Position numbers and translations under genes: made by a program. From NCBI RefSeq assembly GCF_000682775.1, contig NZ_AWFI01000015.1:310001-374000 (forward strand): a DNA stretch of 64,000 nt. Direction: 5' to 3'. Shown piece after piece: positions 17,851-41,025 of the stretch (positions within the stretch are counted from its first letter, which is position 1; every line of letters begins with the position of its first letter). The notes beneath the pieces are model-generated. The model searched no databases and was not told the origin of the DNA. It worked only from the letters and a program-made list of their open reading frames with translations. The stretch is from Hyphomonas sp. L-53-1-40 (GTDB taxonomy: Bacteria; Pseudomonadota; Alphaproteobacteria; Caulobacterales; Hyphomonadaceae).

Positions 17851-17880
17851 TTGACACTGACGCGCTACATTTGTAGCGTA
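17851..17880 (+). promoter_or_regulatory. blaI promoter with BlaI/MecI-type operator
   Basis: A perfect -35 element TTGACA at 17851-17856 is followed after 17 bases by a weak -10 (TAGCGT). Between and over the -10 lies the palindrome CGCTACA-TT-TGTAGCG at 17863-17878. Its core TACATTTGTA fits the BlaI/MecI operator consensus TACAnnTGTA. A repressor bound here would block RNA polymerase directly, giving autorepression of the blaI-M56 operon. The predicted transcript would start near 17886, which rules out the ATG at 17880 and supports 17907 as the start codon. Confidence 0.85.
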
Positions 17881-17906
17881 TGCGTGACTTAGATAGCGAG
17901 ATTTGC

Positions 17907-18290
17907 ATGTCCCAACCCAATCCCTCCGACCTCAGCGTGTTGAAACATCTCTGGTCACATGGCCGGCAAAGCGCACGTGAGGTGCATGATGCCATCGGTC
18001 CGGGGCAGGGGTGGAAGCCGTCAACGACCCGAACCGTCATTGCCAGGATGGAAGAGAAAGGCTGGGTCAGCCGTCAGGACATGCATGGCATTGCGGTATA
18101 TGCTGCCGTTATAGACCGGACCGCCACATTGGGCGGATTGGTCCGCTATCTCGCCCGCCAGGTTCTGGATATGGACGGGCCATTGCCTGCGGCCCTGTTT
18201 GCGGAAAGTCCACACCTCTCCGATGCCGAACTTGATGAACTCGATACCATCATCAACGCGGCGGCGGCCGATACGGAGGGCAAGGCATGA
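17907..18290 (+). CDS. BlaI/MecI family transcriptional repressor
   Basis: This is a 127-residue winged-helix repressor. The DNA-binding half has the family pattern LSVLKHLWSHGRQSAREVHD...TTRTVIARMEEKGW. The C-terminal helices, which dimerise and contain the protease-cleaved linker in BlaI, follow. The start at 17907 is chosen because the longer ATG at 17880 would overlap the operator and precede the predicted transcription start. The stop overlaps the M56 sensor start by ATGA. In the known bla and mec systems, the M56 metalloprotease partner triggers cleavage of the repressor; the same circuit is expected here with a different sensor. Confidence 0.92.
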   Translation: MSQPNPSDLSVLKHLWSHGRQSAREVHDAIGPGQGWKPSTTRTVIARMEEKGWVSRQDMHGIAVYAAVIDRTATLGGLVRYLARQVLDMDGPLPAALFAESPHLSDAELDELDTIINAAAADTEGKA

Positions 18291-20197
18291 GCCTGTTCGG
18301 ACTGATCGCACTCGCCTTTGGTTGGAGCGCGGCGCTCTGGCTGCTCGCCACCGCGCTTTGCGCGCTCAGGCCCTCCCCCAAGATGGCTCAGGCCATATGG
18401 CGCGGCGCTGCAGCTTTGATGTTCGCGCCATTCCTAGCGTCTGCTTTCATGCCGGGCCTGACGCAAGTCGCTGCACAGGCCTTGCCGGATTTACCGGTCA
18501 TGGATGCGCTGACGGTCCAGTCTGATACCGTCTTTGTTGAAGAATCTACCACAGAATTCCGTATGCCACCGGTTGCGACGTTGGTGCTGTGGGCGCTTGT
18601 TGCCGGATGGTTCGTGCGCACGGTCTGTTGGGCTGTGGGGCAAGCGAGACTTCAGCGCCTGAAGCAGACATCCCGTCCGGTCATTCGCCAAGTTCGCCAC
18701 TGGGCCGACGCGATTGGACTGCGGCGCGTGCCGGATGTGCGGGTTATCCCGCGGGGTGCGCCCTTCCTTGCCGGTATCGTGCGCCCGGTCGTCTTCATAC
18801 CGGCGGCGCTCATCTCGAAACAACACACGCCACAAATCATCGTGCACGAACTGGTTCACCTGAAGCGGGGCGACCTGCTGACCCGCCCATTTGACCGTAT
18901 GGTCGCAGATATATTCTGGTTCTCTCCCTTTGCCTGGGCCATGCGCGAGCGCCTCGATTATTGGCGTGAGGTGATCGTCGATGAAGAGACCGCCGAGCTG
19001 ACGGGGGACCGGATCGCCTATGCTCGCGCCCTGACCCAGGTGGCGCGTCATGCCCGACCTGCGCTCATCCTGCCGGTTGCCGCATTCACGCTCAAGAAAG
19101 AAGGAACCCTGAAAATGCGCTTGACCCAACTCCTGAGTGAGACGCCCCACCGACCGAAACGTCTCGGCCTGGCAGTCGCGGCAGCGCTGGCGCTGGCGAC
19201 CCCGCTCGCCTTGGCGCAGGGATCATTGATCCGGGGCGCAGGCGCGCTGCCAACCGAGGCGGTTCCATACAGTCATGCCGTGCTGGACAAGGCGAAGCTG
19301 ACCAGTGCCTTTGGCATGCGTAAGCATCCGGTTTCAGGCGAATTGAAACAGCATCAGGGCGTTGATCTGGCGGAGGAAGAAGGCAAGCCGATCTATGCAC
19401 CGACTTCAGCAATCGTGACCCGCGCAGAGATGACGCGCGGATACGGAAATCTCGTCGAAATCGCTGCGGGTGAGACTGTGCTCCGCTTCGGGCAGCTGAA
19501 AGATATTGAAGTGTCACTGGGGGAATCCGTCTCCGCAGGTACGGTAATCGGATCGCTGGGCCAGTCCGGTCAAGCCACCGGGCCACACCTGCATCTGGAA
19601 GTCTGGCACGCAGGCCAGGCGGTGGATCCGATGGCAGAGCCCGGGCTCGTCCTGGCGGACTCCCTGTTCATCGCGGCAAATTCTGGCGCAAAGGTGCCAC
19701 AGCCCCCCGCGGCTCCTGCGCCGAAAGCTGCGCCCGAGCCTGCCTCAATCCCGGCTGCGCCGCTGGCACCTATCAAGCGTGATGTGGCCTTTGAGGAGAT
19801 CCGCGGGGAAGTCGGCGGTTGCGAGGTCATCGCAAACTGGGCTGACACGCGCGAAAAGTCTGCCGTCTGGGTAGCAAGGCTGGAAGCCTCTCAGGCCCAG
19901 AACAGGCTTGCCGGCTTATGGCTGAAAGCAGATTGGACGCCAGAGTCGGTAACCTATCCAAGACCAACCTATCCTGCCGACGCGGCCAAGAAACGACTCA
20001 GCGGTGGCTGCATGGTCCTGTTCGATCTTGGCGTTGATGGCGTTCCGCAGAACATGCTCGCAGAATGCACCGATCCGGTCTTCGAATCTTCGGCGGCAGA
20101 GCTCAAGGGCGCGACGTTCAAACCGCTTACCAACCAGGCAGGCAAGCCAGTCGACGTCGAAGGCATCACATATCCGATGGAATTCTGTATCGCTTAG
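18287..20197 (+). CDS. M56 (BlaR1-type) protease fused to M23 and TonB C-terminal domains
   Basis: This is a 636-residue membrane sensor. Two N-terminal helices (3-26, 35-58) and a third (about 97-118) precede a cytoplasmic M56 zinc metalloprotease domain with H187-E-L-V-H191 and an acidic D232-E-E motif. A fourth helix near 290-312 leads to the periplasm. There, in place of the penicillin-binding domain of BlaR1, is an M23/LytM-like domain (about 335-450) with H356-x3-D360 and H434-L-H436. A Pro/Ala linker and a TonB C-terminal-like domain (about 550-636) follow. The usual YxHL histidine of M23 is Gln403 (FGQLKD), so hydrolysis may be lost and the domain may only bind peptidoglycan. It is coupled to blaI. 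Confidence 0.88.
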   Translation: MSLFGLIALAFGWSAALWLLATALCALRPSPKMAQAIWRGAAALMFAPFLASAFMPGLTQVAAQALPDLPVMDALTVQSDTVFVEESTTEFRMPPVATLVLWALVAGWFVRTVCWAVGQARLQRLKQTSRPVIRQVRHWADAIGLRRVPDVRVIPRGAPFLAGIVRPVVFIPAALISKQHTPQIIVHELVHLKRGDLLTRPFDRMVADIFWFSPFAWAMRERLDYWREVIVDEETAELTGDRIAYARALTQVARHARPALILPVAAFTLKKEGTLKMRLTQLLSETPHRPKRLGLAVAAALALATPLALAQGSLIRGAGALPTEAVPYSHAVLDKAKLTSAFGMRKHPVSGELKQHQGVDLAEEEGKPIYAPTSAIVTRAEMTRGYGNLVEIAAGETVLRFGQLKDIEVSLGESVSAGTVIGSLGQSGQATGPHLHLEVWHAGQAVDPMAEPGLVLADSLFIAANSGAKVPQPPAAPAPKAAPEPASIPAAPLAPIKRDVAFEEIRGEVGGCEVIANWADTREKSAVWVARLEASQAQNRLAGLWLKADWTPESVTYPRPTYPADAAKKRLSGGCMVLFDLGVDGVPQNMLAECTDPVFESSAAELKGATFKPLTNQAGKPVDVEGITYPMEFCIA

Positions 20198-20798: not shown

Positions 20799-21734
20799 TC
20801 AGCGATCGAACAGTTTCGAAACGCTTTCCTCGTTCGCAATACGGCGAATGGCTTCGCCCAATAGCGGGGAAATGGGCAGTATACGGATAGATTTCGACTT
20901 GATCGCATCTTCTGACGGTTGAATTGAGTCGGTCATGACCAACTCATCCAGTACCGATTTCTCGATCCGCTGAACGGCATTGTTCGAAAGCACGCCATGC
21001 GTGACATAGGCAGAGACCGATTTGGCGCCATGCTCTTTCAGGGCGGCGGCGGCGTTTGCCAGTGTGCCCCCGGAATCACACATATCGTCCAGCATGATGC
21101 AGCGCTTGCCGGACACATCGCCGATAATATTCATGACTTCTGACTTGCCAGCTTCGGGGCGGCGTTTGTCGACGATGGCGAGGTCGGCTTCCAGTCGCTT
21201 GGCCAGCGAGCGGGCGCGCACCACGCCGCCAACATCCGGGGAGACCACCATGAGATCCTTGTTCCCGTAGCGCTCCTTGATGTCATCGACCATGACGGGG
21301 CTGCCGAACAGGTTGTCTGTTGGAATATCGAAAAAGCCCTGGATCTGGCCAGCATGCAGATCGACGGTCAATACGCGGTCGGCGCCCGCGCTGCAGATCA
21401 GGTTTGCGACCAGCTTGGCGGAGATGGGCGTCCGACCATCCGTTTTACGATCCTGCCGAGCATAGCCGAAATAGGGGATGACGGCAGTGATGCGACGGGC
21501 CGAGGCGCGCTTCAGCGCGTCCATGCAGATCAGCAGTTGCATCAGATTGTCATTGGCGGGGTAGGACGTGGACTGGATCACGAAGACATCTTCGCCGCGG
21601 ACATTCTCGTCGATGCGGACAAATATTTCCTGATCCGAGAAGGTCTTCACCTCAGACCGCGTCAGGCGCGTGTCAAGATAATCGGCGATGGCTTCCGCCA
21701 ATGGCCGGTTTGCGTTGCAGGAAAGCAGTTTCAT
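20799..21734 (-). CDS. prs: ribose-phosphate pyrophosphokinase
   Basis: This enzyme makes phosphoribosyl pyrophosphate from ribose 5-phosphate and ATP for nucleotide, histidine and tryptophan synthesis. It is 311 residues, with the N-terminal [10 protein letters not shown] and SDQEIFVRI segments, the flexible-loop GYARQDRK motif, and the PRPP-binding [16 protein letters not shown] signature ([13 protein letters not shown]). This is a class I bacterial enzyme of normal length. It is probably monocistronic, with 88 bases to the next minus-strand gene upstream. Confidence 0.97.
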
Positions 21735-38871: not shown

Positions 38872-38887
38872 GACTACGTCTGTAGTC
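38872..38887 (+). promoter_or_regulatory. palindrome GACTAC-N4-GTAGTC upstream of the TonB receptor
   Basis: A perfect 6-bp inverted repeat with a 4-base centre lies 75 bases before the receptor start. Its core CTAC-N4-GTAG equals that of the blaI operator (CTAC-attt-GTAG) at 17865-17876. It could be a BlaI-family operator or a site for an unrelated regulator. Confidence 0.45.
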
Positions 38888-38961
38888 AATATCGATAATC
38901 GAGATTACATACGGTGGTGAGACGCCGGATTTTCCAGACATCTGCGGGGAGGATACGCAGC

Positions 38962-41025
38962 GTGATCCCTTTCACACGGCTTGCCGCCAGTGCATGCTTC
39001 AGCTTGGCCACATCATTCATGGCCCTGTCGGCTGTGGCGGACATGGCACCGGAAACAACACCCGGTGCGACCATCTACACGATGGATGATTTCAGTCAGT
39101 ATGCCCCTCGAACGGCGCTCGAAATGGTTTCGCGCATTCCCGGGTTTTCGATCCAGGGCGATGATGATGGCTCTCGCGGGTTTGGTCAGGCCAGTGGGAA
39201 TGTGCTGATCAATGGTCAACGCGTGTCCGGGAAGTCCAATGGGGCGACCGAGTCGCTGGACCGGATATCCGCCTCCAGCGTTGTGCGGCTCGAACTGGTC
39301 GATGCGTCAGCCTTTGAAATTGCTGGCCTGTCCGGACATGTCGTGAATGTCATCACCAATGGGGACGGGGCGGTCTCCGGTACTTGGCGGTGGCGTGCGC
39401 GGTTCCGTGACAACCTCCCGCCCTTCTACAACGGCCTCAATCTCACACTCTCGGGCGGGCAGGGGGATATCAGCTGGTCGTTCGAGGCTGAAAGCGACCC
39501 TGAGCGCGGCGCGTCCAACGGTCCTGAATTCGTCACCGACGGCGGTGGTAACCCGGTACAGCGCCGCGAGGAAGACTTCACCTATGCTGCCGAATATGTC
39601 TCCGTATCCGGATCGGTCGGCTGGACGCCAGCCTCGGGGGCCATCGGAAACCTCAATGCAAAAACCACGCTGTTCCAACCGGACAGGAAGGAAACCTCGA
39701 AACTCTTCCCGGTGGACGGGCCAGAGGGGCGGCGACTGTATGAGGGTGCCGAAGACGAGGTGTTTGTGGAGATTGGCGGTGACTATGAATTTGGCCTGGG
39801 ACCGGGCCGGTTAAAGGCTATCGGCCTGGTTCGCCGAGAGGACAGTCCCATCATTGACCGCGTATTCCGCGGCAATGTTGACGGCACAGACATATCCGAA
39901 AGCCTGTTCACGCGCGATATTGAAGAGGGCGAGTATATTCTTCGAACAGAGTATGGTCTTGCATTCGAGAATGGAAGCGATTGGCAATTCGCGCTGGAAG
40001 GAGCCTTCAACTATCTCGACCAGCAGTCGGCGCTCGCGACGTCTCAGGGTGGCAATGCACTTCAGCCCCAGGACCTGCCCAATGCGAACTCTCGCGTTGA
40101 GGAACAGCGTGGAGAACTCTCCTTAACGCACGGACGGCGGCTCGCGCAAAACCTGACGGCGCAGATATCTCTGGGTGCCGAAATGTCGGAGTTGTCTCAA
40201 TCTGGTGATTCCGAAAATGTGAGAACGTTTACCCGGCCCAAAGGCTTCGCCAGTCTGTCCTGGCAAGCCAAACCTTCCCTGAAGCTGGTCACGCGACTTG
40301 AGCGGGAAGTTGGCCAACTCGACTTCTTCGACTTCGTATCTTCAGTGAACCTGAGCGCGGGCAATGGGCAGAACGGCAATCCGGACATTGTGCCGGAGCA
40401 GAGCTGGAAACTCAGTGCGCAGGCAGAGAAGAATTTTGGTGGCTGGGGCGCGGCCACTGTGGAAGTTTTCTACTCGGATATTGAAGACATAGTTGACCGT
40501 GTACCGATTGGGACCGGCGATGGCCCGGGAAACCTCGAGTCGGCCTGGCGTGCAGGCGTCGAATGGGACGCTACGGTGAAGTTCGACAAGATCGGCTTTG
40601 CCGGGGGCGAACTTTCACTGGAAGGCAATTATTATGAGTCCGAAGTCGACGACCCGTTGACCGGACTGACGCGGGAAATCAATGACAGCGAATACTACTG
40701 GTCATTTGCCGAGTTGCGTCAGGATGTTCCAAAGACGGACTGGGCGTGGGGAATCGGATTTGAGCGTTACAAGCGAAATCCGTATTTCCGCCTGGATGAG
40801 ACTGGCATCGAAGGCGCAACGCCGGGGTTCGGGTTTGCCTATGTTGAACATAAGGATATCTGGGGCATGACCGGACAGGCGACATTCGGGAATTTCGCAA
40901 ATCAGAACGACACATTCCGACGTCGGATCTACGACACGAATCGACTTGGCAATGTCGCGCGCGTTGAAGACCGCGCGCGCGATTTCGGCCCGATCTTCAC
41001 AGTCCAGCTGGAAGGCAAGTTCTAG
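38962..41025 (+). CDS. TonB-dependent outer-membrane receptor
   Basis: This is a 687-residue outer-membrane protein with a signal peptide, a plug domain (about 35-150: TALEMVSRIPGFSIQ, NVLINGQRVSGK, VVRLELVDAS) and a beta-barrel ending in an aromatic residue (VQLEGKF, terminal Phe). It imports an unknown ligand using the TonB-ExbBD system. I see no clear TonB box. GTG 38962 is chosen because GGGGAGGA lies 8 bases upstream; a longer start at 38914 is less supported. There is no neighbouring catabolic or siderophore gene to suggest the ligand. Confidence 0.88.
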   Translation: MIPFTRLAASACFSLATSFMALSAVADMAPETTPGATIYTMDDFSQYAPRTALEMVSRIPGFSIQGDDDGSRGFGQASGNVLINGQRVSGKSNGATESLDRISASSVVRLELVDASAFEIAGLSGHVVNVITNGDGAVSGTWRWRARFRDNLPPFYNGLNLTLSGGQGDISWSFEAESDPERGASNGPEFVTDGGGNPVQRREEDFTYAAEYVSVSGSVGWTPASGAIGNLNAKTTLFQPDRKETSKLFPVDGPEGRRLYEGAEDEVFVEIGGDYEFGLGPGRLKAIGLVRREDSPIIDRVFRGNVDGTDISESLFTRDIEEGEYILRTEYGLAFENGSDWQFALEGAFNYLDQQSALATSQGGNALQPQDLPNANSRVEEQRGELSLTHGRRLAQNLTAQISLGAEMSELSQSGDSENVRTFTRPKGFASLSWQAKPSLKLVTRLEREVGQLDFFDFVSSVNLSAGNGQNGNPDIVPEQSWKLSAQAEKNFGGWGAATVEVFYSDIEDIVDRVPIGTGDGPGNLESAWRAGVEWDATVKFDKIGFAGGELSLEGNYYESEVDDPLTGLTREINDSEYYWSFAELRQDVPKTDWAWGIGFERYKRNPYFRLDETGIEGATPGFGFAYVEHKDIWGMTGQATFGNFANQNDTFRRRIYDTNRLGNVARVEDRARDFGPIFTVQLEGKF

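Follow-up and report, generated by a model that had tools for sequence, protein, structure and literature searches.

A conserved BlaI–M56 pair of Hyphomonas in which a probably disarmed M23 domain replaces the penicillin-binding domain of BlaR1

What does a BlaR1-type receptor sense when a cell-wall enzyme domain stands where a penicillin-binding domain is expected? The question is raised by a 64-kb stretch of DNA from Hyphomonas sp. L-53-1-40 (hereafter the window), in which the open reading frame (ORF) of a BlaI/MecI-type repressor, blaI-A, and that of a 636-residue protein with M56, M23 and TonB_C domains overlap by 4 bases (ATGA). We call these two genes pair A, and a second BlaI–M56 pair of the same genome (L001) pair B. 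Our sequence comparisons indicate that pair A is a real, conserved system, consisting of a BlaR1-type receptor, whose sensor has been exchanged for a wall-enzyme domain that is probably disarmed, and of a tight operator for autoregulation. We regard it as an evenly balanced proposition that this receptor senses peptidoglycan via a disarmed, zinc-binding M23 domain and that BlaI cleavage derepresses its own operon. The features on which the argument draws are the following.

17851–17856, + strand: -35-like element TTGACA
17863–17878, + strand: BlaI-A operator CGCTACATTTGTAGCG, from a genome match and conservation at related loci
17874–17879, + strand: possible weak -10 element TAGCGT (3/6), 17 nucleotides past the -35 and overlapping the operator, read from the sequence
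17907–18290, + strand: blaI-A, BlaI/MecI-type repressor of 127 amino acids; its ORF is open from 17880
18198–18200, + strand: BlaI Phe98, predicted P1' residue (PLPAAL↓FAES), aligned with the MecI Phe
18287–20197, + strand: M56-M23-TonB_C protein of 636 amino acids, from the ORF list and Pfam scan
18293–19114, + strand: membrane and M56 gluzincin part, residues 3–276, from a model match to BlaR1
18845–18859, + strand: HELVH zinc motif, residues 187–191
19085–19087, + strand: Phe267 (LPVAA↓F), counterpart of the BlaR1 autocleavage P1' residue Phe284
19262–19660, + strand: M23/LytM domain, residues 326–458, from a model match to M23 enzymes
19493–19495, + strand: CAG codon of Gln403, at the place of the catalytic His, from alignments
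19940–20194, + strand: TonB C-terminal domain, residues 552–636, from a model match

The preliminary description of this locus, made from its letters, had proposed a BlaI repressor beside an M56 protease with M23 and TonB_C domains, and every part was found by a Pfam scan above its cut-off. The repressor matches PF03965 (Penicillinase_R) with 71.3 bits (cut-off 22.6), and the 636-residue protein matches PF05569 (M56) over residues 28–281 with 73.5 bits (cut-off 31), PF01551 (M23) over residues 355–448 with 86.3 bits (cut-off 28.7) and PF03544 (TonB_C) over residues 558–633 with 28.2 bits (cut-off 24.6). The model of residues 3–276 matches the BlaR1 membrane and protease fold, and domain search and structure prediction of the C-terminal part matched both an M23 domain and a TonB C-terminal domain. 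Pfam gave no match to a penicillin-binding sensor domain in the protein, and the NCBIfam model blaR1_generic scored 35.2 against 400. The system thus resembles BlaR1/MecR1-BlaI/MecI in its M56 gluzincin with the BlaR1 membrane fold, its adjacent BlaI, its TACANNTGTA operator and the P1' Phe in both loop and repressor, whereas here an M23 and a TonB C-terminal domain replace the penicillin-binding domain, and no resistance gene was seen in the operon.

At E < 1e-25, the protein is present in 65 of 105 genomes of the family and in 23 of 42 of its own genus. We fetched loci from 50 of the 65 carrier genomes, the window's included: 30 for being the best matches, and a further 20 that we chose for spread and for neighbouring M23 matches. 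BlaI is adjacent in all 50 of these pair-A loci; an M23 domain was detected in 47, in one of which a contig end truncates it. Since the match to the 127-residue form of BlaI opens at ORF residue 1 in 24 of the 50, we moved the start of blaI-A from 17880, where it had been placed before, to the likelier ATG at 17907.

The residues of the M23 domain carry the argument. The domain had been said to keep H356, D360, H434 and H436 and to carry Gln403 where a catalytic His is usual, and the alignments agree: the four residues are present and are invariant over 72 rows, and Gln403 occupies the position of LytM H260, at which each of the three solved M23 chains shown has the His of its H-L motif. The domain therefore shares with M23 endopeptidases such as LytM, ShyA, MepM and Pgp3 the fold, the three zinc ligands and the HxH motif, and differs from them in the Gln at the second catalytic His and in its fusion to a membrane signalling protease. 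Among the 117 fused domains of the close family that are complete or nearly so (from the best 120 of 363 homologues, plus the window), 109 have Gln, five Ser, and one each Lys, Val and Ile, while none has His. By comparison, M23-only control domains, which are matches to our own queries rather than a random sample, have His in 60 of 61 cases and Gln in none. For these counts, M56 presence was assigned by hand from match listings, rows with at least three gaps among the five positions were dropped, and two short Hyphomonas fragments without M56 were set apart from the control (P0093 with Lys, P0095 with Gln). The seven other M23 domains of the window's genome include none with Gln; five are complete, one, as aligned, has the His without the first two ligands, and one is degenerate. 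In the fetched loci, the 46 complete fused M23 domains comprise 41 with Gln, three with Ser, one with Arg and one with His. For LytM, H260 is described as essential (PMC5519744), and for Pgp3, H216 and H247 are reported as strictly conserved, with an H247A variant having served to trap peptides (PMC6978369). From these accounts of the catalytic His it follows that the M23 domain is probably disarmed yet zinc-binding.

The second element of the system is its operator, which had been placed over the -10 box and read as autoregulatory. Both points are supported: CGCTACATTTGTAGCG lies between TTGACA and the possible -10 and overlaps the latter, and exact TACANNTGTA, which we take to be the BlaI/MecI-type operator consensus, stands upstream of blaI in 44 of the 50 pair-A loci (those without an exact site are L010, L046–L049 and L056). 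The operator contains the sole GCTACANNTGTAGC of the 3.31-Mb genome at up to one mismatch. A scan of the window at two mismatches found one operator match against 1.06 expected, i.e., chance level, and the operator is accepted as real because it is conserved across pair-A loci. Similarly, a consensus promoter scan reported no promoter at blaI, and our promoter assignment is made because TTGA lies exactly 15 nucleotides before TACANNTGTA in all 21 Hyphomonas loci with an exact operator. The 16 Hyphomonas genomes scanned have 23 exact copies of CTACANNTGTAG, compared with 163 of the pattern in reverse. Fourteen of the 23 lie at the blaI-A promoter, eight of the other nine belong to a second operator type, and one (in G074) is unexplained; the blaI-A promoter therefore has an exact site in 14 of the 16 genomes, and G041 and G067 carry variants there. 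We saw no second BlaI-A-type operator common to most of the 16 genomes, and a wider BlaI-A regulon was rejected on this ground. At one mismatch, CGCTACNNNNGTAGCG yields further scattered sites, compared by eye only; they include an exact one in G044 and a few with one mismatch that two close relatives share (G000/G070, G037/G070 and G054/G055).

These two elements bear on an unlikely, though still arguable, alternative, in which the protein is structural or an activator like EnvC, NlpD and DipM: its M23 domain would dock on peptidoglycan or an amidase and its TonB domain on an outer-membrane receptor, with BlaI and M56 merely keeping its amount constant. The pair's own promoter has the only operator clearly tied to it, as such a role would have it, and the best structural matches include EnvC and DipM, with which the domain shares a periplasmic, non-canonical M23 fold. 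However, degenerate M23 proteins (EnvC, NlpD) are described as being without catalytic motifs and/or zinc (PMC9662197), whereas the zinc ligands of the window protein are retained, and the protein is linked to a repressor; moreover, the TonB domain was undetected in 37 of the 50 loci. We find it quite unlikely, in turn, that the M23 domain has remained enzymatically active, whether slowly or with changed specificity, so that Gln partly replaces His and turnover is the signal, comparable to the slow deacylation of BlaR1. The invariant zinc ligands and HxH would be compatible with this, as would the complete site of many M56-fused relatives, but the LytM account of an essential H260 argues against it, and the presence of Ser, Lys, Arg, Val and Ile at the same site fits loss better than replacement.

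The TonB C-terminal domain is the less constant part of the proposed sensor. A separate model of the C-terminal piece has a confident fold, matches the TonB C-terminal domains 2gsk and 1u07 and comes close to receptor-bound TonB; the NCBIfam model tonB_Cterm (TIGR01352) stays below its cut-off (12.6 vs 27.1). In a ten-row alignment, the domain has four invariant Cys residues. It thus shares fold and Pfam model with TonB, but here it sits on an M56 protein with the M56 membrane part, while TonB has an N-terminal helix coupled to ExbB/ExbD. Using the window's own domain as the query, by which a distant TonB_C could be missed, we detected it in 13 of the 50 loci, all in the window's genus; one of these loci (L028) keeps TonB_C without M23. 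As such, the earlier idea of M23 and TonB_C together as the sensor holds for the M23 exchange, kept in most members, and was overstated for TonB_C.

A link to TonB receptors comes from pair B (contig C17, about 93.6–95.0 kb), which encodes a BlaI of 120 and an M56 protein of 660 amino acids, with no M23. The latter has a long C-terminal part with a weak Pfam match to Apolipoprotein. Its promoter has two sites of the operator type GACTACNNNNGTAGTC, 25 bp apart. In the window, a TonB-receptor-like gene (38914–41025; Pfam Plug, 26.3 bits) lies between ddl and murB in a division and cell-wall gene region, with the site GACTACGTCTGTAGTC at 38872–38887, 26 bp before it. At up to one mismatch, the GACTACNNNNGTAGTC type precedes the orthologue of this gene in all 16 Hyphomonas genomes; it also occurs elsewhere in all 16 as two sites 24–25 bp apart, which were confirmed to lie at the second pair in five genomes and are inferred to do so in the other eleven. 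The window's genome has three such sites in total, the tandem two and the one at the receptor gene. Hence, the second BlaI system appears to control the TonB receptor, and the two BlaI circuits appear to be kept apart by the outer operator bases. The receptor gene at 38914 was dropped as a BlaI-A target, since its site fits the other operator type (one mismatch vs five). Three further observations concern these genes: a second receptor copy in G067 (L167) has no site, the TonB-receptor-like gene between ddl and murB of L135 (G043) is split into two overlapping ORFs of 536 and 193 amino acids, and G041 has an extra exact GACTACNNNNGTAGTC (L142, C1:795049) at neither the second pair nor the TonB receptor.

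Could the TonB domain then be the real input, sensing TonB-dependent receptors, with M23 merely a wall anchor? The confident fold, the locus with TonB_C and without M23, and the apparent control of a TonB receptor by the genome's second BlaI system speak for this, but the prevalence of M23 (47 loci vs 13, with the caveat on distant TonB_C given above) makes it improbable.

We next consider how a signal sensed by M23 would reach the operator. The HExxH motif is present in each of the 51 M56 sequences aligned, to which pair B contributed one, and within the pair-A loci Phe98 of BlaI and Arg278 of the M56 loop are found in 50 of 50, and Phe267 in 42 of 50. According to PMC9834060, BlaR1 autocleavage takes place before Phe284 and BlaI is cut before Phe102; here, the loop and repressor motifs are alike (LPVAA↓F in M56, LPAAL↓F in BlaI). 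Because the Phe is conserved and the two motifs are alike, which we take as the best evidence, we infer that the M56 protease cleaves BlaI. A trigger that hits BlaI directly in the cytoplasm, M56 being secondary, has a precedent in the peptidoglycan-turnover dipeptide described as binding BlaI/MecI and destabilizing the DNA complex (PMC3305447), but every pair-A locus examined keeps both the protease active site and the Phe of BlaI, which points to cleavage and leaves such a trigger hardly credible.

In the peptidoglycan-sensing mechanism that we propose, BlaI would at rest occupy its operator, which lies across the spacer and the -10 element of the promoter from which BlaI itself is expressed. 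The periplasmic M23 domain would bind a stem peptide or cross-link via its intact zinc site, and cutting would be absent or slow, the proposed general-base His being Gln. By analogy with BlaR1, the membrane helices would relay this binding to the M56 protease, which would cut its own loop and BlaI before the conserved Phe; the operon would then be derepressed, yielding more receptor. In four relatives (L037–L040; four of the 50 loci), a stand-alone M23 protein of 169–183 amino acids with all five residues is encoded just downstream on the same strand and has, by eye, a signal-peptide-like start. Because this protein is probably exported and has a complete active site, the output in these relatives is probably wall cutting.

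Several observations weigh against this reading. One family member (L052) has His, and the M23 review is more cautious on that residue, which in its section 8 "might participate" (PMC9662197). A disarmed site is not required for an M56-M23 protein: a search with L049 as the query gave 80 M56-fused domains (among the best 120 of 958 matches), 50 with His and 30 with Gln, and one with L118, from an Oscillospiraceae genome, gave 104 (among 114 found), 95 with His and none with Gln. M56 occurs without a detected M23 in three of the 50 loci (L028, L051 and L055), and the protein is dispensable, since it is absent from 40 of the 105 family genomes at the threshold used. Position 267 of the M56 loop is Met or Leu in eight of the 50 pair-A loci, and in pair B both Phe positions are taken by Leu, so that the Phe is no general rule. 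The full-length protein model has a pTM of 0.52. Finally, output beyond the pair's own operon is not visible.

How widespread is this architecture, and how did Gln arise? M56-M23 proteins occur in Massilia, Marinifilum, Ponticaulis, Parvularcula and Oscillospiraceae, with the same two-domain order as the window protein, although His is kept in the named Massilia matches and in most domains from the Oscillospiraceae query. The survey that the preliminary description called for finds Gln in nearly all of the close family, whereas many of the wider fusions have His; apart from P0036, PF03544 is on no M56-M23 match listed from the L049- and L118-query searches. From these comparisons, the fusion has a wide distribution, in which Gln is common without being universal. 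A careful tree with 62 rows, 34 of them with Gln, requires ten changes, eight of them forced by well-supported (starred) branches, and a single Gln origin is found in none of 200 bootstrap trees. A quick tree with 108 rows, of which 46 have Gln, gives the same picture, with 12 changes, nine of them forced. These counts give no direction of change and refer to rows of our own choosing (108, then 62 of them), and the homologue clusters are non-independent, which the trees address in part. Masking of the trait residue covered the window and the P rows, but not the L rows; P0266 was excluded for its two M23 domains.

Some members of the wider set have unusual layouts. P0266 (530 amino acids) is an M56-type protein with two consecutive M23 domains, the first with the catalytic His and the second with Gln. 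In Oscillospiraceae, the M56 protein L118:3605-5776 has a terminal M23 domain whose His is intact, and a BlaI-like ORF, judged by eye, comes before it. L041–L043, from one genus, are M56-M23 proteins of 816–857 amino acids with about 350–390 extra residues after M23; in the two of the three that were scanned, these residues have no Pfam match at E 0.01.

Proteins that join M56 to M23 are not new, and not all of them are disarmed. NCBI has a name for them, "M23/M56 family metallopeptidase". According to PMC9662197, M23 proteins with an extra catalytic domain, M56 included, make up <1% of hits, and a role of M56 in peptidoglycan cleavage is not demonstrated. Literature searches limited to open-access papers, and hence weak evidence of absence, found no description of the Gln pattern or of the BlaI/M56-M23 system among the titles and opening lines of abstracts listed; PMC10945521, PMC12578637 and PMC12864828 had no bearing on it. 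As a broader and tentative idea, which we would sooner doubt than assert, a wall-endopeptidase fold may have repeatedly been made a substrate-trap sensor on M56 by losing one His (mostly to Gln) while keeping zinc, apparently in more than one event and in bacteria as distant from each other as Alphaproteobacteria and Marinifilum of the Bacteroidota. Some operons would then pair a disarmed with an armed, probably exported copy, such that a dead enzyme meters the wall bond in order to control a live one. If true, the BlaR1/beta-lactamase logic would have been transferred to cell-wall hydrolysis, and BlaR1-type signalling would be a general chassis with exchangeable sensors, beyond antibiotic resistance. 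To our knowledge, how Gram-negative bacteria gauge periplasmic cross-links or muropeptides is poorly understood. The pair offers a compact candidate, with one repressor, one receptor and one operator, and with natural relatives that have or lack the catalytic His, the TonB domain and the armed partner.

Downstream of pair A lies a convergent gene (20799–21734, 311 amino acids), which, judging from its sequence alone, we take to be a phosphoribosyl pyrophosphate (PRPP) synthetase candidate. Its family is present in 30 of 41 clustered loci, a count based on crude gene calling and with two loci without an anchor. A mobile resistance cassette was rejected as an explanation of the pair, which sits at a conserved chromosomal place beside this neighbour family.
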